64,000 nt of DNA from Cytobacillus oceanisediminis. GTDB taxonomy: Bacteria; Bacillota; Bacilli; Bacillales; Cytobacillaceae. Position 1 is the first letter of the stretch; the number at the start of each line of letters is the position of its first letter. Where the stretch lies: positions 985,501 through 1,049,500 of the forward strand of contig NZ_CP065511.1 of NCBI RefSeq assembly GCF_022811925.1. Reading direction: 5' to 3'. Positions 4,224 through 18,455 of the stretch are shown here, in pieces. A model generated the notes under the pieces. The model did not search any database and was not told the DNA's origin. It saw only the letters and a program-made list of their open reading frames with translations. Position numbers and translations under genes: made by a program.

Positions 4224-4255
4224 ATCGGCTGCAAATTACAGCCGATTTTTTTTTT
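4224..4255 (+). terminator. Intrinsic terminator of the S-box operon
   Basis: ATCGGCTG (4224-4231), a 7-base loop and CAGCCGAT (4239-4246), then ten T residues. It is immediately followed by the first copy of the dispersed GGGGCAG element. Confidence 0.9.
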
Positions 4256-4305
4256 ATAACAATTGGGGCAGGTTAATTGAACGGGGAAGTCAAATAAATA
4301 GAGGT
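4256..4305 (+). repeat. Dispersed boundary element, copy A
   Basis: After the terminator T-run the sequence reads TTGGGGCAGGTTAATTGAAC followed by GGGGAAGTCAAATAAATAG. The GGGGCAG core is at 4265-4271. The same extension (AAGGAAGTCAAATAATTAG) occurs at copy M near 18431. The element sits between the terminator of one gene and the ribosome binding site of the next, as do the other copies in 4.2-18.5 kb. Confidence 0.7.
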
Positions 4306-4335
4306 TAATAACTCTAAGTATTGGAGTGACTGCAA

Positions 4336-4863
4336 ATGCAAATATACCCAGATGATCCATTTATTACTAGAACAGTAGAAGTTGGCGGACTTACGAAATC
4401 GCAGCTTCATCAAAAACTGCAGCAATACTCCATCTTGATGAATGAGTATGGCGAAAGACTGTTTGCCGATGATAGATTTACGACTTCTGATAGGGTGTCC
4501 AGCCTGAAGACAGTTGAGCTAACCGTTATGAACCTTGGTTTTCATGATGGAGCTACTACAGAACAGCTTTTTAAAAGAGCGAGAAGCCTTGGTTTGGAAT
4601 TATGTCCGCATGAGCTGGGTCCTCACCTGAGACTGAAATATCTGGACCAGCCTGAAGGTTTTTCGGGGAATACCGCAAAGCAGCAGCAAGAAGCTCCACC
4701 TGGCTCTGTCACAATAGCATCGGAGATCCTAACTGAAGATGATGATTTTCCGAAAGGTTTTTATCTTAGACGAATTAATGGCGTTTTATGGCTGCGCGGA
4801 TACATAGCGGACCATCTGCACGTTTGGAACCCTGAAGACCGCTTTATCTTTATCAAACTATAA
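4336..4863 (+). CDS. Conserved hypothetical protein
   Basis: 175-aa soluble protein that I do not recognise by function. The start has a good site (TTGGAGTGACTGCAAATG). It is mixed alpha/beta, with no membrane segment or signal peptide. A central stretch LGLELCPHELGPHLRL and a C-terminal WLRGYIADHLHVWNPEDRFIF are the most distinctive parts. It stands alone between two copies of the dispersed boundary element, as a single-gene unit. Confidence 0.75.
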   Translation: MQIYPDDPFITRTVEVGGLTKSQLHQKLQQYSILMNEYGERLFADDRFTTSDRVSSLKTVELTVMNLGFHDGATTEQLFKRARSLGLELCPHELGPHLRLKYLDQPEGFSGNTAKQQQEAPPGSVTIASEILTEDDDFPKGFYLRRINGVLWLRGYIADHLHVWNPEDRFIFIKL

Positions 4864-5167
4864 AAATTATGAAAAGAGAGAGATTAAGTGAAGACTTGCC
4901 TTTTTTATTTAACTAAAGAGATCAGCTTTCAAACCAGGAGTTTTTTTTCTGTTTAACAAGGAATTGATTGAAGAAGAAATCAGGCAACTATTTTCTTTTT
5001 AAACTAAAGGGGGAGGCTAGATAATAAGGTATTGGTTAATTAATGATGACTGGATTTTGCATTGTAACCGTAAGGATGATCACTATTAACCAGGAAATGA
5101 AATAAAGTAGCAACTTTCTATATAATTTGATATATTTTTACATAATTATCGTAAAGGAATGACCTAT
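4864..5167 (+). repeat. Intergenic region with degenerate boundary elements (copy B)
   Basis: No convincing gene. The stretch contains two degraded T-rich units followed by AACTAAAGAGATCAG and by AAACTAAAGGGGGAGGC (core near 5009-5016). These match the pattern T-run / AACTAA / GGGG-box of the other copies. A further AACAAGGAATTGATTGAAG at about 4953 may be the 3' half of another copy. Confidence 0.45.
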
Positions 5168-5536
5168 ATGAAATTAATTAAACGATTTATTTTAAACCGC
5201 CCTGCTGAAAAGCGGCTTGCATATTTTTATGGTATGGTTACAACGGATGAACAGGTGTGGCTGCTGCGCGACGAGAATGGCGACCTATTTCTCTTAGAAG
5301 ATGATGGGGAATATGAATTTTTGCTGCCTGTATGGCCAAGCAGAAGCTTTGCTGAAATGAAGGCTGCCAATTTAGATGAGTCATACGAAGCGTTTAACAT
5401 TCCACTTTCAAATTTTTTAGACGAGTTATTAGTTGATATTGAACATGACGGTGGTGCTGCAGCGATTTTCCCTAATGAAAACGATACAACCATTCAAAAA
5501 CGTGAAGAAATAAAAGAAATGCTTCGCAATTTATAG
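5168..5536 (+). CDS. DUF2750 family protein
   Basis: Small cytoplasmic protein, 122 aa from the preferred start. VWLLRDENGDLFLLEDDG followed by LPVWPSRSFAEM matches the DUF2750 pattern (W-x-L near the start and LPVWP in the middle). I prefer ATG 5168 to ATG 5159, because AAAGGA (5153-5158) is 9 bases from 5168 but touches 5159. Function is unknown. It is a single-gene unit of the cassette-like region. Confidence 0.8.
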   Translation: MKLIKRFILNRPAEKRLAYFYGMVTTDEQVWLLRDENGDLFLLEDDGEYEFLLPVWPSRSFAEMKAANLDESYEAFNIPLSNFLDELLVDIEHDGGAAAIFPNENDTTIQKREEIKEMLRNL

Positions 5537-5724
5537 CAAGAAAAATGCTCACATTAAATAGGAAAGTGTATTTAGACTAGTAACGGAGAATCCTAACATA
5601 AGTGAGTTCAGTTCTTTTGTAGAAATTGAGTATGTTATATAACTAATGGGTGCAAGAGGAGCAATAAGAAGCGACACCATTAACCAGTAATGTATGGATT
5701 TCTTTGAGAGGTGTGTGGCAGTTA

Positions 5725-6183
5725 ATGATTTTGGTCAGTTCTTGTTTAGCTGGATTAGAAGTTAGGTATAACGGTACACATAGCTTAGATAACAAGATTA
5801 GTAATTTAGTTGGAGAGAATAAAGCTGTTACGGTCTGTCCCGAAATGCTTGGTGGGTTTTCAACCCCAAGGGAACCTGCTGAAATAGTAGGCGGAGACGG
5901 AGAAGATGTACTGGATGGAAAGGCTAAAGTGGTTGAGAAATCTGGTAATGACGTAACCGAACTTTACATAAAAGGAGCTTATGCAACTTTAGAAAAAGCT
6001 AAAAAAATTAACGCAACAATAGTTGTTCTCAAGGAGAATAGCCCATCTTGTGGTAGTTCAATGATTTATAACGGTGAATTTAAGGGTAACAAAATTGTTG
6101 GAAACGGAGTTACTTCAGCTTTACTTAAAAGAAATGGTTTACAAGTAATTTCAGAAGAACAATTTGCTGAAAATTTCTTTTAG
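5725..6183 (+). CDS. DUF523 family protein
   Basis: 152-aa protein with the DUF523 hallmarks: an N-terminal MILVSSCLAGLEVRYNG, then CPEMLGGFSTPREPAE, and KENSPSCGS near residue 115. The conserved cysteines (SCL, CPE, SPSCG) suggest a metal- or thiol-dependent site, but no function is established. ATG 5725 is about 12 bases after GAGAGGTG; an upstream TTG at 5704 lacks a site. It is transcribed alone, ending at a hairpin near 6226. Confidence 0.88.
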   Translation: MILVSSCLAGLEVRYNGTHSLDNKISNLVGENKAVTVCPEMLGGFSTPREPAEIVGGDGEDVLDGKAKVVEKSGNDVTELYIKGAYATLEKAKKINATIVVLKENSPSCGSSMIYNGEFKGNKIVGNGVTSALLKRNGLQVISEEQFAENFF

Positions 6184-6224
6184 TAATCAATTTACGGGTA
6201 CTTATGTTCAAGATCAGCTGCTAA

Positions 6225-6265
6225 TCGCGCAGCTTTTTTCAGGTTAGTAAAATAACTAGAAGAGA
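6225..6265 (+). repeat. Terminator plus dispersed boundary element, copy D
   Basis: AGCTGC, loop, GCAGCT and a T-run form a terminator, followed at once by CAGGTTAGTAAAATAACTAG. This is the GCAGGTTAGT half of the repeat with the GGGG part lost. The order terminator then GTTAGT box is the same as at copies E, F, K and M. Confidence 0.6.
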
Positions 6266-6400
6266 TATTACCCAAAAGGAAAATTAAATCAGGATTGGAA
6301 ATTCCAAGTTTCTGGGGTGCAGCCTTAATGAAAAACAGGGAAGGTAATTTTATTAAAAGGGAGAATTTTAATATGAGTATAAATTGAGAGGAGTCTGAAG

Positions 6401-6916
6401 ATGTATCATAGCTTAAGCGACTTTTTAAAATCCTGGGAATTTGAGGCTGGGGCTACAAACAGGATTCTTAATAATCTCACAGATGAATCATTAAAACATG
6501 AAGTCACTCCAAATCAATGGTCTTTAGGACGTATTGCGTGGCATACGGTTACTGCTATAAAAGTGATTAGTTCGCAGGCAGGTTTAAGGTTTGAAGCTCC
6601 TGATGAAGATTGGTCTGTTCCATCTTCGGCTAATTTCATTGCTGAAAGCTATATTAATTCTTCTTATAACTTTGTTGAGGCTTTGGAAACTCAATGGACT
6701 GATCAGACCCTATTAGAAAAAATTGATTTCTTTGGCATAAAAATGACAAAGGGAAGTCTGTTATTATTTTTAAACCAACATCAAACCCACCACCGAGGAC
6801 AAATGACTATTCTAATGAGACAAGCAGGACTTATTGTTCCAGGGATTTACGGACCCTCAAAAGAAGAATGGGCACAATTTGGAATGGCTGAACCAAGACA
6901 AACTTTATTTGATTAA
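6401..6916 (+). CDS. DinB family protein (first of three)
   Basis: 171-aa DinB/YfiT-type four-helix bundle. The metal-binding histidines are visible: one in RIAWHTVTAIK (about residue 49) and the pair in LNQHQTHHRGQ (about residues 126-131). DinB-like proteins are often thiol- or metal-dependent transferases, but this member's reaction is unknown. It has a good start (GAGAGGAGTCTGAAGATG). It resembles the other two DinB genes here (13504, 17131) only in fold-level motifs, so they are not recent duplicates. Confidence 0.9.
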   Translation: MYHSLSDFLKSWEFEAGATNRILNNLTDESLKHEVTPNQWSLGRIAWHTVTAIKVISSQAGLRFEAPDEDWSVPSSANFIAESYINSSYNFVEALETQWTDQTLLEKIDFFGIKMTKGSLLLFLNQHQTHHRGQMTILMRQAGLIVPGIYGPSKEEWAQFGMAEPRQTLFD

Positions 6917-6990
6917 ATTCTAGAGCCACTATTGAAAATAGAAATTAATCAATTCATTATTATACAAAGACCATAATAACCGATTAAATC

Positions 6991-7050
6991 CAGCTGCCAT
7001 CTTAGGCGGCTTTTCTTATTGTGCTAAGGGGGCAGATTAGTAAAGAAAGC
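6991..7050 (+). repeat. Terminator plus dispersed boundary element, copy E
   Basis: CAGCTGCC (6991-6998), loop, GGCGGC (7005-7010) and TTTTCTT, followed by GTGCTAAGGGGGCAGATTAG and TAAAGAAAGC. The GGGGCAG core is at 7029-7035. CTAA and TTAG flank the core as an inverted repeat. Confidence 0.75.
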
Positions 7051-7094
7051 AAAAATGTAAAAATTTATTTGAATAATGGGAAGAGGGGTTAATT

Positions 7095-7511
7095 GTGAAG
7101 AGAGTAGACGTTGTATATGCGTTTATTTATGAAGAAATAACAGAGAAAGTATTAATGGTTAATAATCGACATTCAACTTGGTCTCTACCAGGTGGGGCAG
7201 TTGAAAAAGGTGAAACGTTAGAACAGGCAGTTATCCGAGAAACAAAAGAAGAAACTGGTTTAGTAGTTGAAATAGAAAATATTATTGCAGTTAATGAAGC
7301 GTTCTTTTCTAAACACGGTCATCACGGTTTAATGATTACATTTGGGGCAAAAGTTATTGACGGAGAAATTACAATTAAAGATAAGAACGAAATTGCAGAA
7401 ATAAAATGGGTAGACATAAATACTGCTAATAACTTAATGCCTTACCACCCAGGTGGAGTAGAGGACTTATTAAAATCCTCTACACCTTATATTTTTCAAG
7501 GTGAATGTTAA
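7095..7511 (+). CDS. NUDIX hydrolase
   Basis: 138-aa NUDIX domain protein. The complete NUDIX box GX5EX7REUXEEXGU is present: GGAVEKGETLEQAV, then IRETKEETGL at about residues 33-55. It hydrolyses a nucleoside diphosphate linked to another moiety; the specific substrate (housecleaning nucleotide or other) is not predictable. The GTG start at 7095 follows AAGAGGGG. It is a single-gene unit flanked by boundary elements on both sides. Confidence 0.93.
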   Translation: MKRVDVVYAFIYEEITEKVLMVNNRHSTWSLPGGAVEKGETLEQAVIRETKEETGLVVEIENIIAVNEAFFSKHGHHGLMITFGAKVIDGEITIKDKNEIAEIKWVDINTANNLMPYHPGGVEDLLKSSTPYIFQGEC

Positions 7512-7519
7512 TAAAATCT

Positions 7520-7612
7520 TTTTCAACTAATGGGTACTGTTAGTTAAATAAAGACTGCTAACAGCAGCCATTTTTCTTGTTCGACTAACGGGGCAGGTTG
7601 GTTAAAAAATTA
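7520..7612 (+). repeat. Dispersed boundary element, two copies in tandem (F1, F2)
   Basis: F1: CTTTTTC then AACTAATGGGTACTGTTAGTT, a perfect AACTAA/TTAGTT inverted repeat around a changed loop. F2: a CTGCT-AAC-AGCAG hairpin, TTTTTCTTG, then ACTAACGGGGCAGGTTGGTT with the core at 7590-7596. The stem is kept while the loop differs between F1 and F2, which supports a selected or structurally important hairpin. Confidence 0.75.
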
Positions 7613-7632
7613 AAAAACTGTTCAATACTTGT

Positions 7633-8067
7633 ATGATAAGTATGATAGCGGGTTTTACAGCTTGTGCTGAGTTTACTTCATACGCTTTAGTACATCCCGT
7701 TATCCGTCATTTACCTCAAAAGCAGCATATATACTTTGAACAAGGTTCGCTGAAAACATTTGGACTTATTATGCCTATATTAATGCCTGTAAGTGTAATT
7801 CTAACCTTGTCTTTCGCAGTATTTACGAAAGAACCTGGAATTATCGGGCTTGCAAGCCGTTTTTCTTCTGCTGGAATGTTCATTTTAGCAACAATAATAA
7901 CTATTAGATTTAACGTTCCTATTAACAAGGCAATCAAACAGTGGGATGCAGACAATCCGCCAATTGATTGGAAGGAGATAAGAAAACGATGGATGTTCTA
8001 TCAATCTATTCGTTCTTGGTTACTTCTTATTGGCTTCGTGTTACTTTGTTTATCAGTTAGGATTTAA
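7633..8067 (+). CDS. DUF1772-like membrane protein
   Basis: 144-aa protein with four hydrophobic segments and the DUF1772-type motif FNVPINKAIKQWDADNPP before a C-terminal WKEIRKRW...RSWLLLIGF segment. Function is unknown. The start is doubtful: no ribosome binding site precedes ATG 7633, and the frame is open only back to 7606. The first membrane segment looks short compared with the family, so the 5' end may have been lost when the flanking element (F2) was joined. Confidence 0.75.
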   Translation: MISMIAGFTACAEFTSYALVHPVIRHLPQKQHIYFEQGSLKTFGLIMPILMPVSVILTLSFAVFTKEPGIIGLASRFSSAGMFILATIITIRFNVPINKAIKQWDADNPPIDWKEIRKRWMFYQSIRSWLLLIGFVLLCLSVRI

Positions 8068-8079
8068 TTATATATGCTT

Positions 8080-8115
8080 TGAGCAAACGGGTCAGGGTAA
8101 TTAAGCAGTAAGAAG
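8080..8115 (+). repeat. Dispersed boundary element, copy G
   Basis: GAGCAAACGGGTCAGGGTAATTAAGCA, a variant of the AACTAACGGGGCAGGTTAGTTGAA consensus (core at about 8089-8095). The remaining bases to 8356 contain another possible degenerate copy (AACAAACGGTCACG at about 8201) and no gene. Confidence 0.5.
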
Positions 8116-8356
8116 GTGTGTCTCATTTGAAAAATAAGTAGAGGATATATTCAGCAGGGATTTTTGCGCTAACAGTGAGTAACCTTAAACTGTTTTATTA
8201 ACAAACGGTCACGTTTCCACAGGACGTGTCTTTTTATTTGGACCCAATTGTTGAAGATGAACTGGGAATGATAATGAAAATTCATAGTTAAGGAAACAAT
8301 ATGTAAGACAAGGTAACAGATGATCCTGGAAATTTTCCTTTTTAGGGAGTGGATGG

Positions 8357-9247
8357 ATGGACCTATTAACTTTTACTGAGGAATTTTTTGATTATATAAG
8401 GAAGTTTTTACTTTTAAGATTTACTCTATTTGCTTTGGTTCTCATTACCTTTTCAATTGTCATAAACCGTATTATAAATTGGTTCTTTAAGAAGTCTAAT
8501 TTTTTTGATGAAGAGGTAGAACAGACGATACAAGGTGTAACTCGATCCATTTTTAGATATGGAATTGCGATTAGCCTTGTTATTTACCTAATTAGTCAGT
8601 TTGTAGATATAAAAGGTATTCTTGCAGGTGCAGGGATTGCCGGTGTTGTCATCGGTTTTGCTGCACAGCAGATGTTAAAAGACGTTATTTTAGGGTTCGC
8701 AAGATTAACGGACAAAGAGTTTCGTGTCGGCGATTTTGTTACTTTCAACGGGACAAGTTCAGGTACCATTGAAGAGATAAGTATACGCTTTATGCAAATT
8801 CGTGAATGGTCGGGAAAGCTCCTTACCATCCCGCATGGAGAGATTAGAGCGATACAAAATTTTAATAAAGGCTGGATGCGGGTTATTGAACGGATTACGG
8901 TAAGTTATCAGGAAGATCCAGCAAGAATAAAGGAATTGTTAGAGAAAGCAAGTGTTATGTGCAATGAAAAATTAGTTCATAGCCTGTATAGGCAAGGGGG
9001 CGAGGCTGCTGAACCTTTTCAATATATTGGGATTACAGACTTAAATCCAAACCTTAAACATGTTGGGTACGAATTTTGTATTGTAGGCTTGGTTAAGCCT
9101 GAAGAGTATTTTGAATCTTCCAGGCAGGTAAGATTTGAACTAATGTCTTTATTCCATAAGAATCAAGTACAAATGCCAACCGCGAACATGTTCGTTCAAA
9201 CTGAAAATTTACAGGAGATTCTTGAGCAGCCTTCACCCAGCACGTAA
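8357..9247 (+). CDS. Small-conductance mechanosensitive channel family protein (MscS)
   Basis: 296-aa MscS-type channel. There are three membrane segments, the third being the glycine/alanine-rich pore helix GILAGAGIAGVVIGFAAQQM (about residues 88-107), followed by the beta domain DKEFRVGDFVTFNG...GTIEEISIRFMQIREW and a cytoplasmic vestibule domain. It releases solutes on hypo-osmotic shock. The start ATG 8357 follows AGGGAG. It is transcribed alone. Confidence 0.95.
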   Translation: MDLLTFTEEFFDYIRKFLLLRFTLFALVLITFSIVINRIINWFFKKSNFFDEEVEQTIQGVTRSIFRYGIAISLVIYLISQFVDIKGILAGAGIAGVVIGFAAQQMLKDVILGFARLTDKEFRVGDFVTFNGTSSGTIEEISIRFMQIREWSGKLLTIPHGEIRAIQNFNKGWMRVIERITVSYQEDPARIKELLEKASVMCNEKLVHSLYRQGGEAAEPFQYIGITDLNPNLKHVGYEFCIVGLVKPEEYFESSRQVRFELMSLFHKNQVQMPTANMFVQTENLQEILEQPSPST

Positions 9248-9433
9248 AGGAAAAACTAGCTGATTCGAGAGCCTGGCGGTTTATGAGGAGTGGCAGCAAA
9301 TTATTTAGAATGTGGATTTGCAGATCGGCAGCTTGTCTATTCACTGTTTCAGATAGCACTTTGGAACAAAATTTATGGTGATAATATTTTGTGAATCAGA
9401 TAAAACTAGTGTTTAGGAAAGGAGGGATTGCGA

Positions 9434-9811
9434 ATGTCTGTGAAAAAGCGGGTAACAGGATTAGTCGTTGTGCTTGCAATGGTTGTGGTGCTGTCAACTC
9501 TAGGCTCATTCGGTGTATTTGCCGAATCCGGTGTTGGAACTAAGGTGAAATCGATTGAGGTCGAGCTGAACGATGATTACTTTAATCCGAAAGTCATCAC
9601 TATTCCGAAAGGAACAACCACAACGTTAATATTGAAAAATAAAGGTAAGAAAGAGCACACCTTCACAGTGGAAAAGCTCGGAATTGACGCCGAGATCCAG
9701 CCAGGAAAAGAAACAAACATTTCCGTGAAACCGAATCAGCCCGGTACATATGAGCTTATATGCCGGTACCATTTCCAGGAAGGAATGGTTGGAAACGTAA
9801 TAGTCAAATAA
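9434..9811 (+). CDS. Secreted cupredoxin-domain protein
   Basis: 125-aa exported protein. A signal peptide (KKR, hydrophobic VVVLAMVVVLSTLGSFGVFA) leads to a single cupredoxin beta-barrel. Probable copper ligands are the His in KKEHTFTV and the C-x2-H-x4-M set in CRYHFQEGM. ATG 9434 is 8 bases after AAAGGAGG; the TTG at 9428 is too close. It probably binds copper at the cell surface. A GGGCC/GGCCC terminator follows. Confidence 0.88.
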   Translation: MSVKKRVTGLVVVLAMVVVLSTLGSFGVFAESGVGTKVKSIEVELNDDYFNPKVITIPKGTTTTLILKNKGKKEHTFTVEKLGIDAEIQPGKETNISVKPNQPGTYELICRYHFQEGMVGNVIVK

Positions 9812-9816
9812 TAACC

Positions 9817-9842
9817 GGGGCCATTAAGGCCCTTGTTTTTTT
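9817..9842 (+). terminator. Intrinsic terminator after the cupredoxin gene
   Basis: GGGGCC, loop ATTAA, GGCCC, then TTGTTTTTTT. Confidence 0.85.
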
Positions 9843-9993
9843 ATGGTTGAAGGAAATTTATTTATTATTACCCAGATAGCAACACTGCAGCTAACTTTCC
9901 TCTGTAAATGGATTATAAAAAATCGTTCACCTCTAATAAATGGTAAATATAATGTATAGTAACGCTTAAACCAATATAGAAGGAGGTGAATAG

Positions 9994-10554
9994 GTGTATT
10001 TTTTTAAACCTATTTCTGATGAGGTTCGTCTATTTCAGGAAATATTCAATAAATATAAAAAAACAATGAAGCTCATTTTAGTGTCTATTTTTACTTGTAT
10101 TGCTGCTATTCTACAGGCTGCTGGCGGCTTTTTACCAGGTATAGGATATTTTTTAAGTCCGCTTGCCACTGCACCTATTATGTTATGTTCCATGTTTTCC
10201 ATTCCATTTGGAGTAATGTCCTATTCTCTGACAATTATGTTGTTATTTATCCTGCAGCCATCTGAACTAATTATATTTCCTTTTACAACAGGCTTGTTAG
10301 GGCTTGGCATTGGGGCTTCTTTTTCCTTTTTCAGGAAGAGGTTAAGTGTTATTGCTGCTGGTACAATCCTTTTAATGTTAGGAATTATGAGTTTAATATT
10401 TTTTTTTCACTTTCCAGTTTTAGGTCCAGCCGTCTCTGTATCCTTTTCATTTCTTACAGCGGGAAGTATTTTTTTATTTGTTTTCCTTTATAGCTGGTTA
10501 TGGGTTGAAGTTGCTTTAATCATGATTATAAGATTAAAAATGATTATCATTTAG
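9994..10554 (+). CDS. Polytopic membrane protein of unknown function
   Basis: 186-aa very hydrophobic protein with five or six membrane helices after a charged N-terminal segment. The GTG start at 9994 lies right after GAAGGAGGTGAATAG. The motif AAGGFLPGIGYFLSPLATAPIMLC near residue 40 has the look of prokaryotic small integral membrane families, but I do not recognise it. No partner gene is adjacent. Confidence 0.75.
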   Translation: MYFFKPISDEVRLFQEIFNKYKKTMKLILVSIFTCIAAILQAAGGFLPGIGYFLSPLATAPIMLCSMFSIPFGVMSYSLTIMLLFILQPSELIIFPFTTGLLGLGIGASFSFFRKRLSVIAAGTILLMLGIMSLIFFFHFPVLGPAVSVSFSFLTAGSIFLFVFLYSWLWVEVALIMIIRLKMIII

Positions 10555-10637: not shown

Positions 10638-12062
10638 TCATGGAACTATTTCAAAAACAGTGCCTTGGTTAAAATCAGTCACTTTCATAGATCCATAAAC
10701 CCCTAAATATAATCTGGTCTGTTTCAGATTCGTTCCCAAATTAACATAATAGGCTGATTGAGATCCAAAATCATAATCGGTTTGTATCACACTAAATTCA
10801 TTTTGTTCACCATTTGGTCTTATGGTGGTATAGGCTAAAGCCCCTCTAACCTGAGGCTGCGATTCTTTCCGGGCAAGATCGGTAAACACAACGCTTCCTG
10901 TTAAACCAGGGATTCTTTTCCCCATATAGGCTTGCACTCCTGTAAGTGCAGTTCCTCCAAACTTATCTGGTCTAGAGTCTTTATGAAAATAACTGGTTAA
11001 AGGCCGGAGACGACTCGCTGAAAGTGCTGCTGCTTCATTGTAATAAGCAATTGTCTTCTCATCCAAAGTCCCATTATTGGTGCAGCCTCTTATAATCGAT
11101 GCAGGAAAATCACCTTCCCAGCCTCGCCAGCCAAAGTTTATAAATCCTTCCATGTCAGGTTCTGAATTCATGAAAGAAGCTTGAACAAGCTGAGTAACCG
11201 GTATGGGTTTATAATGAACGAATGAAAAAATCGATTCGACCAAATCCTGGCCGACATTCCCTGCATATTTAATATACTGATTATAAAACCTTTGAAATGA
11301 AATGCCTGGAATATTGCGAACCCCTTTGGCCATTACTGTTAGGGTTTCCTGAATCGCTGCGGGAAGTTCATTAAAGCGCGTGGCAATGGGGGGATTAATG
11401 ATATAAGTATTCTTATCTACATCCATTTCAATTATTTTACCAGCAATTTCGAGATCATCCTGGCTTAAGTTAAATGGATCATGGCCTGATCCGCCATCTC
11501 CGGTTGTTAAAACAAGTTTTCCTGTTTCTGGTGAAAAGTTTAAACTATTGACTCCGTTATGATTTGAAAATGGCCTTCTTAAGTTAAGTAAAGTCCTTCG
11601 TTTTTGGGGTCCGCCATTCGATTGTAAAATCCATTCTTCAATGGTATCAATATGGTCATATTGTGTTTCTCTATTCATCCACCTGAGGTTTAAAGTTCCA
11701 GGATCACACGGGTTAGGATTAAAAGATTCAGAAAGAACACCTGGTCCTTGTGTCCCGGCTGCTGAATAATGAAGATAAAACAGACCGTTATAATAAAATT
11801 CGGGATGAAACGCTAGTCCCAGCAATCCCCGTTCATCATATCCGCCACCAGAAACACCTAGCTTTAGGATTCGGGGGCGAATATCTAAAAAAGTCCTTAA
11901 GCTTGAGTTTCTTATGTAAAAGATCTCTCCTACCTGGGTTGCAATAAATAATCTTTCCTTTGAGTCACCTGGAAGTATAGCTGTTTTCAAAACAGTAGGT
12001 AAATTTATCTTACTGGCAATGGGCCGTAAACCAACCTTGACTGTTATCAACTGACTTTCCAC
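10638..12062 (-). CDS. PQQ-dependent sugar dehydrogenase-like (GSDH family) beta-propeller protein
   Basis: 474-aa protein of the glucose/sorbosone dehydrogenase six-bladed propeller family. Motifs include ERGLLGLAFHPEF near residue 76, FSNHNGVNSLNF, TTGDGGSGHDPFN near residue 188, GVRNIPGISF, and NFGWRGWEGDFP near residue 306. I see no signal peptide, which is unusual because most GSDH proteins are secreted. Whether it binds PQQ or has lost catalysis is not decidable by eye. Convergent with the gene to its left on this map and divergent from the dehydrogenase at 12247. Confidence 0.85.
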   Translation of the reverse strand: MESQLITVKVGLRPIASKINLPTVLKTAILPGDSKERLFIATQVGEIFYIRNSSLRTFLDIRPRILKLGVSGGGYDERGLLGLAFHPEFYYNGLFYLHYSAAGTQGPGVLSESFNPNPCDPGTLNLRWMNRETQYDHIDTIEEWILQSNGGPQKRRTLLNLRRPFSNHNGVNSLNFSPETGKLVLTTGDGGSGHDPFNLSQDDLEIAGKIIEMDVDKNTYIINPPIATRFNELPAAIQETLTVMAKGVRNIPGISFQRFYNQYIKYAGNVGQDLVESIFSFVHYKPIPVTQLVQASFMNSEPDMEGFINFGWRGWEGDFPASIIRGCTNNGTLDEKTIAYYNEAAALSASRLRPLTSYFHKDSRPDKFGGTALTGVQAYMGKRIPGLTGSVVFTDLARKESQPQVRGALAYTTIRPNGEQNEFSVIQTDYDFGSQSAYYVNLGTNLKQTRLYLGVYGSMKVTDFNQGTVFEIVP

Positions 12063-12246: not shown

Positions 12247-13179
12247 ATGATCATACATAATATACTGGTTGCAGGAAGCTATGAAAAGGAATTTCAAGAA
12301 CAGCTGCCAGCTGAAGCATCTCAGTGCTTTCGTTTTAAGCAGGTTGACGATATTACAGAAGAGGATTTGTCATGGGCGGATGCCTATGTCGGTTTCAAGC
12401 CATGTCCCGGCTTCCGCTTTGCCGATCTTAAATGGGTACATTCCTTTAATGCCGGAGTAAACAATTATTTGGAAATTGAAGGATGGAAGGAACGTGATAT
12501 TCTTCTAACCAGGACTGTTTGCTCGTTTGGACAGAGAATAAGCGAGTATTGTTTAAGCTATGTATTAAGGGATCTTCAATTTCATCAATACTTTGAAGGA
12601 AAACAAAGGGAGAAAAGGTGGGCTCCAAAAACTCCGCAAATGGTGAAGGATCAAACGATTGTTATCTTTGGTACAGGGGAGATTGGGCAGGAGGCTGCGA
12701 AGGTTTTTTCAAGTCTTGGAGCCACCGTTTACGGCGTCTCGCAAAGCGGCAGGCAAAAGGAGTATTTTCATAAGGTCGCGAAAACCAGCTCTGCAGGCAC
12801 ACTGGCTGCACAGGCAGATTGGATTATCAGCACATTGCCTTTGACAAAAGAAACGAGTAAGCTATTTGATCGTACGTTTTTCAGCCATTTAAACGGAGCT
12901 GCCTTTATTAATGTCGGCAGAGGCCATACAGTGGACGAGCAAGCGCTTATTGAAGCGCTCAATTTCAGAAAGGTCCGTTTTGCTGTGTTAGATGTTCTTG
13001 AAACAGAACCGCTGCCAGAGACTTCCGGGCTATGGGGAAGAGACGATATCATCATCACTCCTCATATATCAGCAGTGACAGAGCTAAATGAAGCGATCGC
13101 TTGCTTTTTGGATACATTGAAGAGAATCGAAAATAATGATGCTATACCTAATAGGGTGGATTTTCTGAAGGGGTATTAA
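12247..13179 (+). CDS. D-isomer-specific 2-hydroxyacid dehydrogenase family protein
   Basis: 310-aa NAD-dependent oxidoreductase. The Rossmann motif IVIFGTGEIGQEAAKVF is at about residue 138. The catalytic Arg is in FINVGRGHTVD (about residue 222), a Glu in LDVLETEPLPE and a His in IITPHISAV (about residue 266). It reduces a 2-oxoacid or oxidises the D-hydroxyacid; the substrate is unknown. The N-terminal half is divergent, as in the YoaD/GhrA-like branch. A single gene with its own promoter region at 12063-12246. Confidence 0.9.
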   Translation: MIIHNILVAGSYEKEFQEQLPAEASQCFRFKQVDDITEEDLSWADAYVGFKPCPGFRFADLKWVHSFNAGVNNYLEIEGWKERDILLTRTVCSFGQRISEYCLSYVLRDLQFHQYFEGKQREKRWAPKTPQMVKDQTIVIFGTGEIGQEAAKVFSSLGATVYGVSQSGRQKEYFHKVAKTSSAGTLAAQADWIISTLPLTKETSKLFDRTFFSHLNGAAFINVGRGHTVDEQALIEALNFRKVRFAVLDVLETEPLPETSGLWGRDDIIITPHISAVTELNEAIACFLDTLKRIENNDAIPNRVDFLKGY

Positions 13180-13284
13180 TAGATAAGCAAAGATCTTCGG
13201 TGGGGACGTATTCATGGCTAGGGAAAATTGTTTAAAGGTTAGTGTTAAGCAAACAGGCGCTTTTTTGAAATATGGATAGCGTCT

Positions 13285-13330
13285 TTCTTTATGAAAAGGG
13301 CCAGATTGTTGAATATGAAATAGCAGGATT
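13285..13330 (+). repeat. Dispersed boundary element, copy H
   Basis: A T-rich unit then AAAAGGGCCAGATTGTTGAATATGAA (described here in parts: GGGCCAG core at 13298-13304, TTGTTGAA after it). It lies in the 324-base gap 13180-13503, which otherwise shows no gene. The leading GGCGCTTTTTTGAAATATGG may be a decayed terminator. Confidence 0.5.
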
Positions 13331-13503
13331 TATTATAAAAAGGCAGAATCTTAAAAAGATGATTTGTTTATTAGTTTTGTTGAATTCTAAAGTAGGAGAT
13401 GACTATGAAACTGACTTTCTCTGAATAAAAAGTTGTTCTTCGGGATTCTCATCTTGTTGGGTGAAAAAAGTTCGTTTAATTTTCTAAAAGTGAGGGAATG
13501 CTT

Positions 13504-13968
13504 ATGTCATCTTATTTCTTTGAAACCGGGTTACATGGGGAAAATGCTCATGTTGACCCCTTGGAGGTGTTTGAGGGTTTACGGTGGGAGATGGCTGGCG
13601 TTAAACCCGCAAACTGTCCATATTCAGTATGGCAGATTATAAACCATATGATTTTTTGGCAGGATTTCTATCTTGTCTACCTTAATGGCGGCGTGCCCAA
13701 TCATCCAGAGCATGACGAAGACTCTTGGCCCGCGGAAACAGCTCCGTCAAATGAAACCGAGTGGAGTGACACTGTTTTACAATTCAGTAAGGGGCTAATG
13801 GAAGCTGAAAACGAAGCAAAAAAAGATTTAAAGGAACAAAGAGACGCGGGATTGGAAAGGACGCGTGGTGACCTTTTAGCCACGCTTATGGCACACAACA
13901 GTTATCATACCGGACAGGTAGCACTGATTCGGCAATTAATTGGAGCATGGCCTCCCCCTTCTTGGTGA
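13504..13968 (+). CDS. DinB family protein (second of three)
   Basis: 154-aa DinB-type bundle with the three metal-site histidines: INHMIFWQDF (about residue 48) and LMAHNSYHTGQ (about residues 130-136). ATG 13504 is 6 bases after GAGGGA; the in-frame ATG at 13498 is too close to it. The C-terminus ends in LIRQLIGAWPPPSW, common in this subgroup. Function is unknown. Confidence 0.9.
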   Translation: MSSYFFETGLHGENAHVDPLEVFEGLRWEMAGVKPANCPYSVWQIINHMIFWQDFYLVYLNGGVPNHPEHDEDSWPAETAPSNETEWSDTVLQFSKGLMEAENEAKKDLKEQRDAGLERTRGDLLATLMAHNSYHTGQVALIRQLIGAWPPPSW

Positions 13969-14325
13969 TGCATGGAGCCAACTGCTTACCTTTTTAAGTC
14001 TTGAAAGTTCAACGATCGGGTGCTTTAATGAAAAAATGAAAAAGCTCAATTTTTCTTTGAATTACGGGGAAGTTGGGCTTTTTAGTATTCCCTTATCATT
14101 GTAAATCGCACTTTCCTGACGTTACCACTAATAGAGCTAAGTTTGTTAAAAAAGTACTTAACAAAGGTGTGCTAAATTAAAGTGGCAGGTTTATTGAAGG
14201 ATAATTTACGGATGAAGGAAGCTAGCCGCTTTTCTAAAGGAACATTTCAATTTTATTTCTATCTTTTCTGCGAAACCATTTTTTTAACCTAATAAGCTGG
14301 GAATACGGACTATTATGGCCCGCTT
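13969..14325. repeat. Intergenic region with two degenerate boundary elements
   Basis: No gene seen in 357 bases. AAGCTCAATTTTTCTTTGAATTACGGGGAAGTTGGGC (14043-14079, in parts) resembles the T-run/GGGG box. A clearer copy reads GTGGCAGGTTTATTGAAGGA with its core at 14182-14188. Confidence 0.5.
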
Positions 14326-15384
14326 TTATTCAAGAACGCCTGTTTCTTCTATTACTACATTGCAGTTAACATCAAAGCCTAACATTTTGTAATCGTCTTC
14401 CCACTTTTTAAAGTCAAAGTTCCGATTCCGGTTTTTTTTCTTTTGACCCAGGCCAACAGGGTCTATTCCGAGATCCTGAAATTGTATTAATAATCTTAAG
14501 CATTCCTGTTCAATTTTTTTCTCCAGGTTCTTTTCAATCTCTCCAACAATCTGTGGGGTTAAAATATCTCCCGTAAACTCACGAATAATTCCTTCGAGAT
14601 TAATGGTTATGGCAGCGTGATTATCAGTCATTTTGATTTTATTTTTTGATTTTATGCTCTTTACAGCAGCTCGATCTCCCTTTTTTAACTTAACATCAAA
14701 GTTTCCTTCGCTATATTTATCTACCAGCAATTTAAAATAGAACAGGTCCTTTACAGGGAGGATGGCCACTTCTTTATCCTTTTGGAAGAGACTAATTCCA
14801 ACTATCTTCACCTTATCATTCCCGGCTTTCTTTAGGCGGGGCAGGAAGGGATCCTTACCATCCTGATAGTAATCACGGGAAAAAATATGCAAATTGGTTA
14901 TTGGAATATCGCGATGTTCAATATTATGTTGAATAAGATTAGAGATATACGTAGCGTTTCCCCGGCTTCCATACTCGCCATTTAACAATTCTTCTGTTTT
15001 TCCCTCTGCGGTTGCAACAAATACGCGCGCCCCCATACTTGCATCTCTCTGAAAAGAATCTATTAAGTCATAAATTCCTTTTGTGGAAATTTCAGGTCCG
15101 AATACAGCCAGCTTTAATCCACCAGAGACTACTGGTTCTGATGTTTGTTTAGAAACATCTAGACGTATGTCCTGCCTAAGTTTTCCACTTCCAGAAAATG
15201 TCTTGTTAATTACACTTTGATCAGGCTGGAATTCCTGGAATAATACAGTTCCTCTATACTTATCTTTCTCATCCTCTGCTAAATCGTAGCCGACTCCTAC
15301 TTCAATATTTATATCATCAATGATTTCTTTTTCCACACACCCTGAAAGCAGCAAGGACAGGCATATTAGTATAAGCTTTTTCAT
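14326..15384 (-). CDS. Orphan Ger(x)C-type spore germination lipoprotein
   Basis: 352-aa GerAC/GerKC-like protein. The lipobox LLLSGC ends a short signal peptide, so it should be a diacylglyceryl-linked lipoprotein. The start at 15384 is chosen because MKKLILICLSLLLSGC makes a standard lipoprotein signal and AAAGGTGA lies upstream; the longer frame to 15483 adds an implausible second hydrophobic stretch. GerC proteins sit on the outer face of the spore inner membrane as part of germinant receptors. No gerA or gerB gene is next to it, unlike the complete operon at 27-30.5 kb. Confidence 0.85.
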   Translation of the reverse strand: MKKLILICLSLLLSGCVEKEIIDDINIEVGVGYDLAEDEKDKYRGTVLFQEFQPDQSVINKTFSGSGKLRQDIRLDVSKQTSEPVVSGGLKLAVFGPEISTKGIYDLIDSFQRDASMGARVFVATAEGKTEELLNGEYGSRGNATYISNLIQHNIEHRDIPITNLHIFSRDYYQDGKDPFLPRLKKAGNDKVKIVGISLFQKDKEVAILPVKDLFYFKLLVDKYSEGNFDVKLKKGDRAAVKSIKSKNKIKMTDNHAAITINLEGIIREFTGDILTPQIVGEIEKNLEKKIEQECLRLLIQFQDLGIDPVGLGQKKKNRNRNFDFKKWEDDYKMLGFDVNCNVVIEETGVLE

Positions 15385-15780
15385 TTCTATTTCACCTTTA
15401 CTATTGGCAATTATGACAGCAGCGAATTCCAACTGAATATATAAAAAGGTAATAGCAAATCCCATCTTTCCCAACAGTATCACTTAGTGAATAGCTTTTT
15501 CTTTTGAGTACTGATTTAGATGGAAATACATACTACGGGAAATAATCCAAATATGAATACAAAATTAGTATTAATCTTTGTGTGGGAGAATATTCGTAAT
15601 AAGGGAATTCCTGAATTAAGGAAGTTTTAGTTATTAAGATGAAAGTAGATGCTTTAGGGGGCTGGCTTCTATATAAAGGTTTAGCAGATCAAGGGCTACA
15701 GCTTTCTGTGCTAAAGGGGCAGGGTAGTTGAAGAAGAAACCTTATACCAATAATTATCGTAAAAAAGGGTAGGGCTTATC
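15385..15780. repeat. Intergenic region with boundary element copy J
   Basis: No gene seen. CAGCTTTCTGTGCTAAAGGGGCAGGGTAGTTGAAGAAG (15700-15737, described in parts) holds a GGGGCAG core at 15716-15722 with GCTA and TAGT as flanking inverted pieces. Confidence 0.55.
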
Positions 15781-15924
15781 CTGAGACATTTGTGTATAGT
15801 AACTTGCATCGTTTTTTTATTTGTTACTGGTTGCACTAATTCGAATACTAATTCACATACCAAGTTAAAAGCCTATACACCATCTGATACTGATATCCCG
15901 GTTGGTGCTAGAAGTAAATTCTAA
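15781..15924 (+). CDS. Possible tiny lipoprotein
   Basis: A short frame ending at TAA 15922 encodes a hydrophobic run then LFVTGC, a good lipobox, followed by a polar TNSNTNSHTK tail, about 45 residues in all. No ATG is available; CTG 15781 or TTG 15790 would have to serve, with AGGG upstream. It may be a real small lipoprotein or the start of a broken gene. Confidence 0.3.
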   Translation: MRHLCIVTCIVFLFVTGCTNSNTNSHTKLKAYTPSDTDIPVGARSKF

Positions 15925-16072
15925 CTCTTAATAATTTCTTTGTATAAAGGTTGAAAAAATGTTTTTGGACAGCAGGCAATCACATATTTGTTCTGTTCTA
16001 GTACATTTGCTCGCACTAAACTTGTCTTTTTTGCATTTCCTAATATTAGTTAGGAAAGGAGGTGCAGATAAA

Positions 16073-16318
16073 ATGCCTTGTACTCTAGAAAATTTATCTC
16101 AACAAGTTTGTTTAACTCTAATCTACAATTTAAGTAGTCGCATACTTTTAGATTCTTTCATTGATTGTGGAGCATGTAAACTAGAAACTGAACTAGACCC
16201 TATTAATAGAAATTTAACTATAAGAGTCCCATTAGTTCTTGAAGGAGAAGTTACATTTACTGATAATCCATTCCAATCTGGTTGTGTTACAACAGGTGTT
16301 CGGTTAGGAACTAAATAA
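16073..16318 (+). CDS. Small cysteine-containing protein, unknown
   Basis: 81-aa protein with an excellent start (AAAGGAGGTGCAGATAAAATG). The frame runs further upstream to 15959 but without a site. Five cysteines include a CxxC pair (IDCGACK) and one near the end (QSGCVTTG). The C-terminal half looks like beta strands (LTIRVPLVLEGEVTF). I do not recognise the family; the size and cysteines would fit a spore-coat or surface protein, which is only a guess. Confidence 0.6.
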   Translation: MPCTLENLSQQVCLTLIYNLSSRILLDSFIDCGACKLETELDPINRNLTIRVPLVLEGEVTFTDNPFQSGCVTTGVRLGTK

Positions 16319-16608
16319 AAGTATTTTATTTAAAAGGAAAAGTAGAGTGTTGATTCTACTTTCCCTTATTTTACTTTGTGTTTTGTTGTAGTCTGATTAG
16401 AAAGTGAAATTAATTCTTTTAAAATGTTTTGATAATGGTGAGGATGTAATATGATAATCACTAATTGAATTATGTTGAATAAAAAAGACGAAAAATAACA
16501 GAGTAATTTGCTGCGTAGTACAAGGATACTATGCATTCAATACAGGATGTATCTGAACTACTTTGTGAAAGAATGTACTTAAAGTAAAGGGTGCTTGTGT
16601 TCAAAATC

Positions 16609-16670
16609 AGCTGCCAACTCGGTGGCTTTTTTCTTTATAAAATAAAGGGGCAGATTAGATCAAAAAGGTT
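16609..16670 (+). repeat. Terminator plus dispersed boundary element, copy K
   Basis: AGCTGCC, loop AACTC, GGTGGCT and TTTTTTCTTT form a terminator, followed by AATAAAGGGGCAGATTAG with its core at 16647-16653. The rest of 16319-16733 shows no gene. Confidence 0.75.
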
Positions 16671-16733
16671 ATGGTTTCATTCAATAAGAATATATATATA
16701 ATCGACCCGAAACTAATATGAGGTGGATCTAAA

Positions 16734-16943
16734 ATGGATAAAAGAGTTATTTTCGACTTTGAAATCGATTTTACTAATGGCGGTGGATTGCAAGGACAGG
16801 ATTTTCGGCTTGATCTTGATGGTGATGACATTACTGATGAAGAGTTGGCGAAGTATATCGTAGAAGATATGAGGCTGCTTATGGTCGGGGAGGTTAGGAT
16901 ACTTAACAAGAAAATAATTAATGAGAAACATAAACGAAATTGA
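16734..16943 (+). CDS. Small conserved protein, unknown
   Basis: 69-aa acidic protein (DFEIDFTNGGGLQGQDFRLD then DGDDITDEELAKYIV). It resembles short Bacillus proteins sometimes labelled cyclase, but it is far too small to be an enzyme of that family. A good start follows GAGGTGGATCTAAA. It is a single-gene unit of the cassette-like region. Confidence 0.7.
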   Translation: MDKRVIFDFEIDFTNGGGLQGQDFRLDLDGDDITDEELAKYIVEDMRLLMVGEVRILNKKIINEKHKRN

Positions 16944-16953
16944 GATTTTATTT

Positions 16954-17061
16954 ATGCTGCGGGTAGAAGGACTTTGTCAAAGGAAAGCCGAAGAAGGAGA
17001 TAGGGCATTTCAAAAAATGATCGATGAAGGACATCTTGAACATTATCAAAAGGAACTTTAG
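16954..17061 (+). CDS. Possible 35-residue ORF or gene remnant
   Basis: ATG 16954 opens a 35-codon frame (MLRVEGLCQRKAEEGD..., ending YQKEL). The codons look natural and the peptide is helical and charged, but there is no ribosome binding site. It may be a fragment left between two units of this region. Confidence 0.3.
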   Translation: MLRVEGLCQRKAEEGDRAFQKMIDEGHLEHYQKEL

Positions 17062-17130
17062 TTCATTCGTGAACATGGAATAGAGTGGAGTTATATTAAC
17101 ATAAATAAAGTCAAAGGGAGCGTGGCGAGT

Positions 17131-17616
17131 ATGTCTTATGCTATAGATGTTTTGGCCGATCAATTGTCAGCAAATACAAATGATCCTAGCTGGTACATTC
17201 CGTTTTCAGAATCAGTTGCAAACTTATCAGAGGAAGATGCGTTTTGGAAACCTAATGAGGAAAGCAATAGCATCGCTGAAATTGTGCAGCATCTTCTCTA
17301 TTGGAATGAAACCTGGCAAAAGAGGTATCATAAATCTCACGTAGATGCTGTTCCATCCTTACGCAATAATAATGAAAGCTTTATAATACCGGAAAATACG
17401 AAGTTTACTGACTTAAAAGAGCAGCTATTAGAGGTGCTCCTGCAGTGGCAAGACTTACTCTCCCAAGATAAACTAGAAAGTGAAATTGAGGGTTTCCCTG
17501 TAGCTGCAAAGTGGTGGGCAATACTTGGGAATCTATCCACGCATAATGCCTACCATATAGGACAAATCATATACGTCCGGAAACTGCAAAAGAGTTGGAG
17601 TAATGACAACAAGTAA
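17131..17616 (+). CDS. DinB family protein (third of three)
   Basis: 161-aa DinB-type bundle with histidines in IVQHLLYWNET (about residue 54) and STHNAYHIGQI (about residues 138-142). ATG 17131 is about 10 bases after AAAGGGAG; a GTG at 17122 is too near. Function is unknown. The three DinB genes of the window are all transcribed rightward and all lie in the repeat-bounded region. Confidence 0.9.
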   Translation: MSYAIDVLADQLSANTNDPSWYIPFSESVANLSEEDAFWKPNEESNSIAEIVQHLLYWNETWQKRYHKSHVDAVPSLRNNNESFIIPENTKFTDLKEQLLEVLLQWQDLLSQDKLESEIEGFPVAAKWWAILGNLSTHNAYHIGQIIYVRKLQKSWSNDNK

Positions 17617-17634
17617 GAGGGTTAATAGGATTTC

Positions 17635-17670
17635 GATGGGGCAAGGGTTAGTCTGATAAGGACTGACAAA
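17635..17670 (+). repeat. Dispersed boundary element, copy L
   Basis: GATGGGGCAAGGGTTAGTCTGATAAGG in parts: core GGGGCAA at 17638-17644 and GGTTAGT after it. No terminator hairpin precedes it here. Confidence 0.5.
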
Positions 17671-17787
17671 GGTAGTCTATGCAGTCAGTATTTAAATTAA
17701 AAGATAATATACTTAATTAAAAATCAGATAAAGTAAACCCAGAGATTAATATGGAAACAAATAGATCAACATTACTCAAAAAAGCAA

Positions 17788-17821
17788 AATGGATTGTCCT
17801 ATAATTAGACAATCCATTTTT
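17788..17821. terminator. Bidirectional terminator
   Basis: AATGGATTGTC (17788-17798) pairs with GACAATCCATT (17808-17818), with T and A runs on both sides. It can end both the DinB gene and the convergent general stress gene. Confidence 0.85.
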
Positions 17822-17825
17822 GTTG

Positions 17826-18314
17826 TTATTTATTCAATTCAACCGTTTCATTCACATCTGTCGATTTAGAACTTTGCCCTGTCATCCGTTTTAAGAGAAA
17901 GGCTATTTTCTTCGTAAAGTTACCGGTTTCCCAATATTCGACTGCTTCCGCTTTTATTTTTATCAAGACTACATTAGGATCATCATAAGAAGTTTGCATA
18001 ATTTCCTCATATACTTTGCTCCACAATTCCTTTTTCTTATCTAAGTCCTCAACTATTTCTGCTTTTCCACGGACGGAAACATAGGATTTACCTGCATAAG
18101 CTACATTAACATCTTGATCATGTAAAATTTCCTCATATTTATTAGTCTCTTTTTTAGTGAAAAACCATAAGTCACCATCAAACTCTACTTCTTGTGTTTT
18201 CATTGGACGGGAAACAAGTCCTTCTTCAGTTACCGTGGTCAGCATGGCCGTGTCTATGTCTTTGATTAACTCTCTTAATGTTTCTATTTCTTCTTGATTC
18301 ATCATGTTAGACAT
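17826..18314 (-). CDS. General stress protein 26-like flavin-binding (PPOX-fold) protein
   Basis: 162-aa split-barrel protein like B. subtilis YdaG (general stress protein 26). Visible family pieces are AMLTTVTEEGLVSRPM, WFFTKKETNKYEEI, VNVAYAGKSYVSVRGKA and AVEYWETG near residue 130. Such proteins bind FMN or a related flavin. The start at 18314 is best placed after GAGGTG; a GTG and an ATG a few codons earlier are alternatives. In B. subtilis relatives are sigma-B dependent; I do not see a clear sigma-B promoter here. Confidence 0.85.
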   Translation of the reverse strand: MSNMMNQEEIETLRELIKDIDTAMLTTVTEEGLVSRPMKTQEVEFDGDLWFFTKKETNKYEEILHDQDVNVAYAGKSYVSVRGKAEIVEDLDKKKELWSKVYEEIMQTSYDDPNVVLIKIKAEAVEYWETGNFTKKIAFLLKRMTGQSSKSTDVNETVELNK

Positions 18315-18374
18315 TTCCATCACCTCGTTAAAGTTTTATAGAGGTATATTACCCTTAATACCAGCTTTTATTCA

Positions 18375-18455
18375 GGTTGCCTAACAAGGCAGCTTTTTTC
18401 TTTTTGAACATAGAGGCAGGTTAATCGAACAAGGAAGTCAAATAATTAGCATTAC
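18375..18455 (+). repeat. Terminator plus dispersed boundary element, copy M
   Basis: GTTGCCT, loop, AGGCAGC and TTTTTTCTTTTTG, then AACATAGAGGCAGGTTAATC and GAACAAGGAAGTCAAATAAT. The core is at 18413-18419. This is the fullest match to copy A 14 kb away, including the AAGTCAAATAA tail. Confidence 0.75.

Follow-up and report, generated by a model that had tools for sequence, protein, structure and literature searches.

A chromosomal array of putative gene cassettes joined at palindromic box sites and associated with an Xer-like integrase in Bacillales

Integrons are rarely reported in Firmicutes, and how Bacillales acquire single accessory genes is an open question. The pertinent part of PMC9024848 reports one complete integron, that of Limnochorda pilosa, and a few clusters of attC sites lacking integron integrases (CALINs). 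Gene modules between Xer sites are known from excerpts of PMC7399989 and PMC12907356, and an extract of PMC6542083 describes the bcr1-bcr18 repeats of Bacillus cereus as 100-400 bp long and specific to the B. cereus group, with a mobility resembling site-specific recombination suggested for bcr. We address this question with a stretch of 64,000 nucleotides (the window) from Cytobacillus oceanisediminis, C1:985501-1049500 of a 5.58-Mb genome, in which an original prediction had singled out a repeated intergenic element. This element is a 34-nt box with near-palindromic arms. The genome has two arrays of such boxes, and the right end of one of them, array A, falls within the window. Very probably (roughly 85%), what ends here is a chromosomal array of mobile gene cassettes that are joined at the box sites and recombined by an integrase encoded within the arrays.

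The core site consists of the arm TTATTsAACTAAC, a spacer of GGGTGC (Box1) or GNNGCAG (Box2), and the arm GTTAGTTsAATAAG. With two inverted arms around a 6-7 bp overlap, it looks like a tyrosine-recombinase site. Box1 and Box2 are often paired as twins that typically flank a terminator-like hairpin. Boxes were called with a strand-fixed 34-column weight matrix built from the two arrays of the host genome, at thresholds of >8 and >14 bits. Between 4 and 19 kb of the window there are 18 boxes above 8 bits, all on the + strand (mean of 0.95 in 20 block-shuffles), and 14 boxes above 14 bits (0.2 in block-shuffles), which bears out the claim of a repeated element in this region. One of the 18 (11860-11893) lies inside a leftward open reading frame (ORF; 10638-12062) and may be a chance match. 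Eleven of the 13 box cores named earlier were recovered; those at 6241 and 17638 score below zero bits. The left arm is missing at 6240, where a border still seems to exist because matches of relatives end or begin there (query 3042-3063). The element was also said to have no copy elsewhere in the window; the rest of the window has five matches above 8 bits and none above 14 bits. A 24-nt consensus with at most three mismatches occurs once in the window, and the whole genome contains 12 copies of a 23-nt version and none of its reversed pattern.

Pairs of boxes were classed by sequence identity over 78 nt per side, using the 1163 boxes with enough flank. Shared flanks were found upstream only in 76 pairs, downstream only in 54 and on both sides in 9, so that 130 pairs switch homology at the box and 9 continue across it. 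Up to and including box column 13 (the spacer's first G), identity tracks the upstream partner; from column 16 onward it tracks the downstream one. The intervening variable bases of GNNGCAG, columns 14-15, match neither partner. Control anchors placed 200-400 nt away give 3-9 switches versus 36-78 continuous pairs, and those 120-160 nt away, which overlap twins, give 10-26 switches versus 46-62 continuous pairs. The proposed coincidence of element borders with breakpoints is therefore upheld. Box1/Box2 joins account for only 2 of the 66 typed upstream-only pairs (10 untyped pairs were dropped from the 76), although box frequencies predict 49%. The downstream-only pairs (0 of 48 Box1/Box2) are uninformative on spacer type because their spacer is shared by descent. 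Both box types act as breakpoints, and single boxes occur. As judged from these alignments, exchange maps within the spacer and joins like spacers, a pattern that would be expected from strand exchange across a 6-7 bp overlap matched only in part.

A dedicated recombinase accompanies the boxes. It had been remarked that no integrase is visible, which is true of the window and untrue of the genome, whose arrays encode a distinct tyrosine recombinase of 279-284 amino acids. A scan of genome contigs with an alignment of this integrase confirmed 318 stretches, and the best 80 of these 318, containing 78 loci (L037-L114), were analysed. The loci are nearly all labelled Bacillales (L040 is labelled Chryseobacterium). 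Every one of the 78 has at least one box above 14 bits, and 857 of the 879 matches lie on the strand opposite to the integrase; the reversed sequences give 15 matches in 1.28 Mb. The search for a co-occurring recombinase thus has a positive answer. Boxes lie on both sides of the integrase at 65 of the 78 loci, and the other 13 include contig ends. A second integrase group, represented by 20 selected loci of 61-66% identity (L167-L186), has 101 of 104 boxes on the integrase's own strand (control, 3), with one locus lacking a box. The orientation of the integrase relative to the array is consequently fixed within each group, yet opposite between the group of 74-97% identity (opposite strand) and that of 61-66% (same strand).

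The position of the integrase between box types is also regular at the 78 loci. On its 3' side (median distance 53 nt) there are 40 Box1, 0 Box2 and 11 other boxes, and 27 loci have none; on its 5' side (median 74 nt) the corresponding counts are 1 Box1, 54 Box2, 7 other and 16 none. Wherever both ends can be typed, the integrase sits in a Box1-Box2 interval, with one exception, on the 5' side. Sporosarcina and Peribacillus plasmids carry boxes together with integrase copies, two of which are partial. An order-wide survey of 299 genomes used a strict box pattern of low sensitivity and an integrase threshold of E<=1e-60. The pattern occurs 495 times in 101 of the genomes (reversed pattern, 3), and the integrase is found in 60. 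At least three strict boxes are present in 19 of the 60 integrase genomes versus 17 of the 239 others (Fisher p = 2.6e-6), and at least one in 31 of 60 versus 70 of 239. Five genomes of this survey (G003, G054, G251, G256 and G294) have 8-12 strict boxes without an integrase match at E<=1e-60, and they possibly contain integrase-less arrays or draft gaps.

In the host genome, array A extends over about 857-1004 kb with its boxes on the + strand and array B over about 3314-3200 kb with its boxes on the - strand. Fifteen array stretches of 20 kb (300 kb) contain 140 boxes above 14 bits, 138 of them on the array's own strand, versus 4 boxes in 20 spread stretches of the same length (400 kb). There are 11 matches of phage-integrase type in this genome, and three are in the arrays:

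C1:3312292-3313143, intact integrase of 284 amino acids, array B
C1:925395-926223, integrase copy broken into two frames, array A
C1:3301708-3302169, distant broken integrase with 29% identity, in the arrays

By identity (55-66%) and by orientation, the broken copy in array A resembles the more distant integrase group. No boxes were detected at four other tyrosine-recombinase loci of the host (3.4-3.8 kb each), and its two serine-resolvase matches lie outside the arrays. The nearest relatives of the integrase in its own genome outside the arrays (L032 and L033) are 32% identical to it and have no boxes at their loci. The intact integrase shares 97% identity with its Mesobacillus subterraneus counterpart and has 3394 relatives at E<=1e-3. 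The best 120 of these 3394 are 73-97% identical, and those that are named are nearly all from Bacillales. Residues R143, K167, H233, R236, H259 and Y268, which we take to be the catalytic residues, are invariant in 26 integrase sequences. The protein scores 209 bits with an XerA-type model, 203 with XerC and 200 with XerD, and it is below the curated cut-offs of all of these as well as of the IntI models (TIGR02249 integrase_gron, 89.5 bits versus a cut-off of 265; NF011946, 55.1 versus 435). Its relatives in the PDB are XerD, XerA-type proteins and, weakly, IntI4 (1a0p, 4a8e and 5hxy are among them). A phage origin was considered and rejected, the best phage match among 12 records at E<=1e-30 being only 36% identical.

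Comparisons between related genomes indicate that the content between boxes turns over, as had been expected of cassettes. Within the host, units that lie in the order X-Y in one place recur elsewhere as X-Z-Y, with a 108-nt unit Z exactly between them. The sister genomes G317 and G318 align as a 170-kb chain with long blocks of 97.5-99.3% identity, one short block of 80% and five gaps. Array content is replaced at 702-710 kb, where boxes or twins mark three of the four edges; at 668.7 kb a unit of 867 bp begins at a box, and an 883-bp insertion contains one. The same-genus search covered 36 genomes, including the host. Behind the conserved gene that borders the window's array on the left, 9 of 16 same-genus stretches have at least three boxes, 5 have none and 2 have one box on the opposite strand. 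Those nine contain 61 boxes on the array strand and 1 on the other, with the first box 1.1-11 kb behind the gene, whereas the reversed control has 4 boxes in all for the 16 stretches. Homology behind this gene stops at window position 4183-4184 in five genomes (G315, G317, G318, G325 and G330) and then diverges. Single window units are present at other places in same-genus genomes, and some of the match borders have degenerate boxes. For the strongest matches, 38% of 55 internal ends are within 35 nt of a detected box. Matches stop at query 2463 (window 5658) for G307 and G325, within the weak box 5635..5668, and at query 3840-3847 (window 7035-7042) for several genomes, within the box 7016..7049. 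The features of the window's array, all on the + strand and with genes given as putative cassette genes, are as follows:

3196..4152, +, conserved left-border gene, not a cassette; 69-94% identity in 16 same-genus stretches
4252..4285, +, box of Box2 type, spacer GGGGCAG, 22.1 bits
4336..4863, +, cassette gene, 175 amino acids, without Pfam match
4996..5029, +, box, spacer GGGGGAG, 30.9 bits; the G325 match begins at query 1816 (window 5011)
5159..5536, +, cassette gene, DUF2750 (PF11042); unit at other places in G307, G325 and G330
5635..5668, +, weak box of Box1 type, spacer GGGTGCA, 8.6 bits
5704..6183, +, cassette gene, PF04463 (DUF523, 2-thiouracil desulfurase); single matches in many same-genus genomes
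6401..6916, +, cassette gene, DinB (PF05163); unit present three times in the host genome, with borders aligned
7016..7049, +, box of Box2 type, spacer GGGGCAG, 30.0 bits
7095..7511, +, cassette gene, NUDIX (PF00293)
7519..7552, +, first member of a twin site, spacer GGGTACT, 27.2 bits; 15.8 with the Box2 matrix, above 7.1 with the Box1 matrix
7577..7610, +, second member of this twin (Box2 type), 58 nt on, with a hairpin between, 37.7 bits
7633..8067, +, cassette gene, PF08592 (DUF1772-like)
8076..8109, +, box, spacer GGGTCAG, 18.3 bits
13242..13275, +, first member of a twin, spacer AGGCGCT, 14.8 bits
13285..13318, +, second member of this twin, 43 nt on, spacer GGGCCAG, 24.1 bits
13498..13968, +, cassette gene, DinB_2 (PF12867)
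14005..14038, +, Box1-like site, spacer GGGTGCT, 11.3 bits
14169..14202, +, box, spacer GTGGCAG, 14.1 bits (20.6 with the Box2 matrix)
15703..15736, +, box of Box2 type, spacer GGGGCAG, 30.9 bits
16576..16609, +, first member of a twin (Box1 type), spacer GGGTGCT, 16.9 bits
16634..16667, +, second member of this twin (Box2 type), 58 nt on, 24.3 bits
17122..17616, +, cassette gene, DinB_2 (PF12867)
18400..18433, +, last box at the array's right end, spacer GAGGCAG, 15.6 bits (Box2 matrix, 23.8)

To the right of this last box, the window has no box above 14 bits. Outside the array, a SAM riboswitch (RF00162, 94.2 bits) is found at 1918-2021, upstream of the ORF at 2110.

The window's cargo comprises three DinB-type genes, NUDIX, DUF2750, PF04463 and PF08592 genes and one gene without a match; two of these had been labelled DUF523 and DUF1772, for which Pfam scoring gives PF04463 and PF08592. 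The enclosed genes were described as almost all rightward, which is not exact, since three ORFs are leftward (10638-12062, 14326-15483 and 17826-18323). These leftward ORFs in the array stretch may be reverse-oriented cargo or non-cassette islands. Across the loci, the median length of inter-box segments (up to 6 kb) is 774 nt when only those of at least 120 nt are counted; 287 of 1088 are shorter. Orientation was counted in segments of 250-1600 nt, after removal of 35 segments with an integrase and with 30 lacking an ORF. The longest ORF lies on the array strand in 458 of the 546 ORF-bearing segments, and 385 of these 458 have one ORF of at least 60 amino acids, which corresponds to the mostly single-gene cassettes in one orientation that are expected of an integron. 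A sample of 120 cargo proteins, taken from 295 candidates in 72 loci, matches 105 Pfam families, with GNAT acetyltransferases foremost (PF00583, 9 members), and 16 defence models with one member each. Promoters are not in excess in the 272 cassette leaders (median 76 nt after the box), where 78 promoter-like sequences (9 of 12 positions) compare with 69.7 +- 7.5 in shuffled sequence.

Other elements are found at the boxes. Four kinds of repeated ends are located at the GCAG of a box, or four bases behind it, in 16 of 17 copies, which come from the host arrays and from L040, L043, L070, L077, L100 and L135. The motif MEPTGHYW, presumably that of IS110 transposases, is found beside two of the four kinds, and an IS110 transposase is annotated in the Sporosarcina plasmid array. 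Two group II intron reverse transcriptases are also annotated near the box array of a Sporosarcina plasmid (L115, 4814-6619 and 30524-32326).

If the cassette reading is correct, then units usually consist of a single accessory gene, and a terminator-like hairpin often comes after it. The integrase would bind the arms, cut at the edges of the spacer, and excise, insert and reshuffle cassettes between matching spacers (Box1 with Box1 and Box2 with Box2). The two variable N positions may be carried as heteroduplex; we propose that the variable bases follow neither neighbour because the mismatched overlap then segregates at random. The asymmetry of the spacer might likewise explain why cassettes all keep one orientation. 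At the loci of the nearer integrase group, the gene for the integrase lies between a Box1 and a Box2 within the array. It seems reasonably likely that this is a second, non-IntI platform for gene capture that is widespread in Bacillales, with two non-cross-reacting core sites per junction, tolerance of two mismatched overlap bases and an integrase that lies within the array and whose orientation is fixed in each group. Such a platform would be a Gram-positive counterpart of the integron, derived from an Xer-like recombinase by a route separate from that of IntI. Among the open-licence PMC papers listed in literature searches, with few subscription papers among those covered, none describes a system of this kind in Bacillaceae, which is not proof of absence.

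Several other explanations deserve weighing against this one. The original prediction likened the two-hairpin site after each gene to cassette recombination sites, and the twin (Box1-hairpin-Box2) might be a true attC analogue, one strand of which folds into a long imperfect hairpin that is recombined in folded form, as in integrons. Twin spacing is regular, with peaks at 41-51 and 56-61 nt (340 twins in 68 of 80 sequences; 0 in reversed sequence), the sites of an array share one orientation, and by consensus the outer arms are complementary to each other, as are the inner arms. Compensatory change is nevertheless lacking in the arms of 303 non-redundant twins among the 340: outer arms are 53.9% paired versus 53.5% when permuted (54.0% within locus), and inner arms 51.0% versus 50.9% (50.4% within locus). 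Within an array the last arm of a site would belong to the following cassette, which weakens the outer-arm comparison and leaves the inner-arm one intact. Shifting the register by one gives a slight improvement relative to permutations of that register (z = 1.8-2.2), and within Box2 pairing is weakly above permuted values (55.6 versus 54.6; 19 of 500). Both box types are breakpoints, single boxes occur, and a folded site of this kind is unlikely. A different possibility is that the integrase unit (Box1-int-Box2) is the mobile element and that twins are deleted copies behind genes, like miniature inverted-repeat transposable elements, with the genes passive. The integrase does lie between Box1 and Box2 as an element lies between its ends, and across genera unrelated genes are followed by near-identical short hairpin units of about 50 and 60 nt, in clusters of 14 units in 12 loci and 11 in 8 (twin sites of L038, L040, L045, L048, L050, L064, L070, L078, L079 and others). 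Genes and not only short units change at boxes, one gene can have differing neighbours with the switch in the spacer, and the Box1/Box2 switches required to move such a unit make up 2 of 66, all of which renders this quite improbable. A reading of the hairpins as independent terminator mini-cassettes was dropped on the same count.

The alternative first offered was that the boxes are dispersed repeats like repetitive extragenic palindromic elements, inserted after terminators; in this view they would only mark intergenic DNA, with genes turning over by ordinary homologous recombination. It fits the intergenic location of the sites, often beside a terminator-like hairpin, and the variability of the region. 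It would need continuous homology across most boxes, and 130 of 139 pairs display the opposite; homology switches within about three spacer bases and between like spacers, and in each of two integrase groups the boxes keep a constant orientation with respect to the integrase. Exchange driven by RecA is disfavoured because unrelated boxes are only about 54% identical on average over 34 nt, too little for RecA pairing. We consider this explanation extremely unlikely. The host XerC and XerD could instead act at the boxes, as they do on Acinetobacter dif modules, with the integrase a passenger. Its Xer-like sequence and the precedent of gene modules between Xer sites speak for this idea, which is made very unlikely by a dedicated integrase family located at the arrays in group-fixed orientation and by the lack of boxes where its two closest relatives in the host genome outside the arrays are encoded. 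The cassette reading accounts better for borders that are breakpoints, for content that turns over in relatives and for a dedicated recombinase in the arrays.

Some observations fit it less well. The evidence is comparative throughout, and no excised circle, binding or reaction was observed. The matrix was trained partly on window sites, the independent test being the 78 foreign integrase loci, and homologous box pairs are not independent events. Boxes also occur outside the host's arrays: one each at 760 kb and 800 kb, two at 3520 kb and four at 3320 kb (two per strand). Events relating X-Y to X-Z-Y number only 3 among the 76 pairs, two of them at other loci. In G317 and G318, one of the five gaps is a 1559-bp insertion without any box, and of the 10 gap edges, 6 have a detected box no more than 35 nt away in one or both genomes and only 3 have one in both. 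Among the matches listed of at least 300 nt in the same-genus search, 18% of 128 internal ends are within 35 nt of a detected box, with 9% expected. In the order-wide survey, the strict pattern, which is insensitive, is present at least once in 70 of the 239 genomes that lack an integrase match and absent from 29 of the 60 integrase genomes.

If cassettes are mobilized in this way, then clusters of orphan DinB, GNAT, NUDIX and DUF genes would be explained, a search model would be available for listing many more cassettes, and Bacillus engineering would gain a new site-specific recombinase whose sites are defined. It would also become possible to test for more than one origin of cassette arrays from Xer-like enzymes.

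Among known systems, integrons (sedentary chromosomal ones included), as portrayed in the consulted portions of PMC9668308, PMC8946536, PMC9024848 and PMC8618304, are the most instructive comparison. The arrays share with them a tyrosine recombinase, diverse accessory genes and a long series of cassettes that are mostly single-gene and uniformly oriented, every cassette having its recombination site; comparison of loci points to precise exchange of cassettes where recombination would occur. As in the IS1111-attC group of the PMC11187229 extract, insertion sequences are located at cassette sites. Unlike in integrons, the array enzyme is far below the IntI models, each junction has two palindromic core sites with matched spacers instead of one folded attC, and the integrase usually has boxes on both sides instead of standing at the array end beside attI; no attI platform was found at the 78 loci. 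Junctions contain terminator-like hairpins, and a LexA-like site was found at 0 of 74 integrase loci. XerC, XerD and XerA are sequence relatives of the integrase, and the Acinetobacter dif modules likewise place gene modules between core sites. The dif modules carry their sites in alternating orientation, whereas the boxes are directly oriented (857 of 879 and 101 of 104) with conserved GGGTGC or GNNGCAG spacers, and the integrase family is array-bound and below every curated Xer cut-off. The bcr repeats are also interspersed in Bacillaceae, but by their reported distribution and description they are set apart from boxes that span many Bacillales genera, bound genes and accompany an integrase. 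By sequence comparison, then, the system appears integron-like in function and layout, while membership among integrons fails on the integrase family and the platform, and a folded attC is unsupported.

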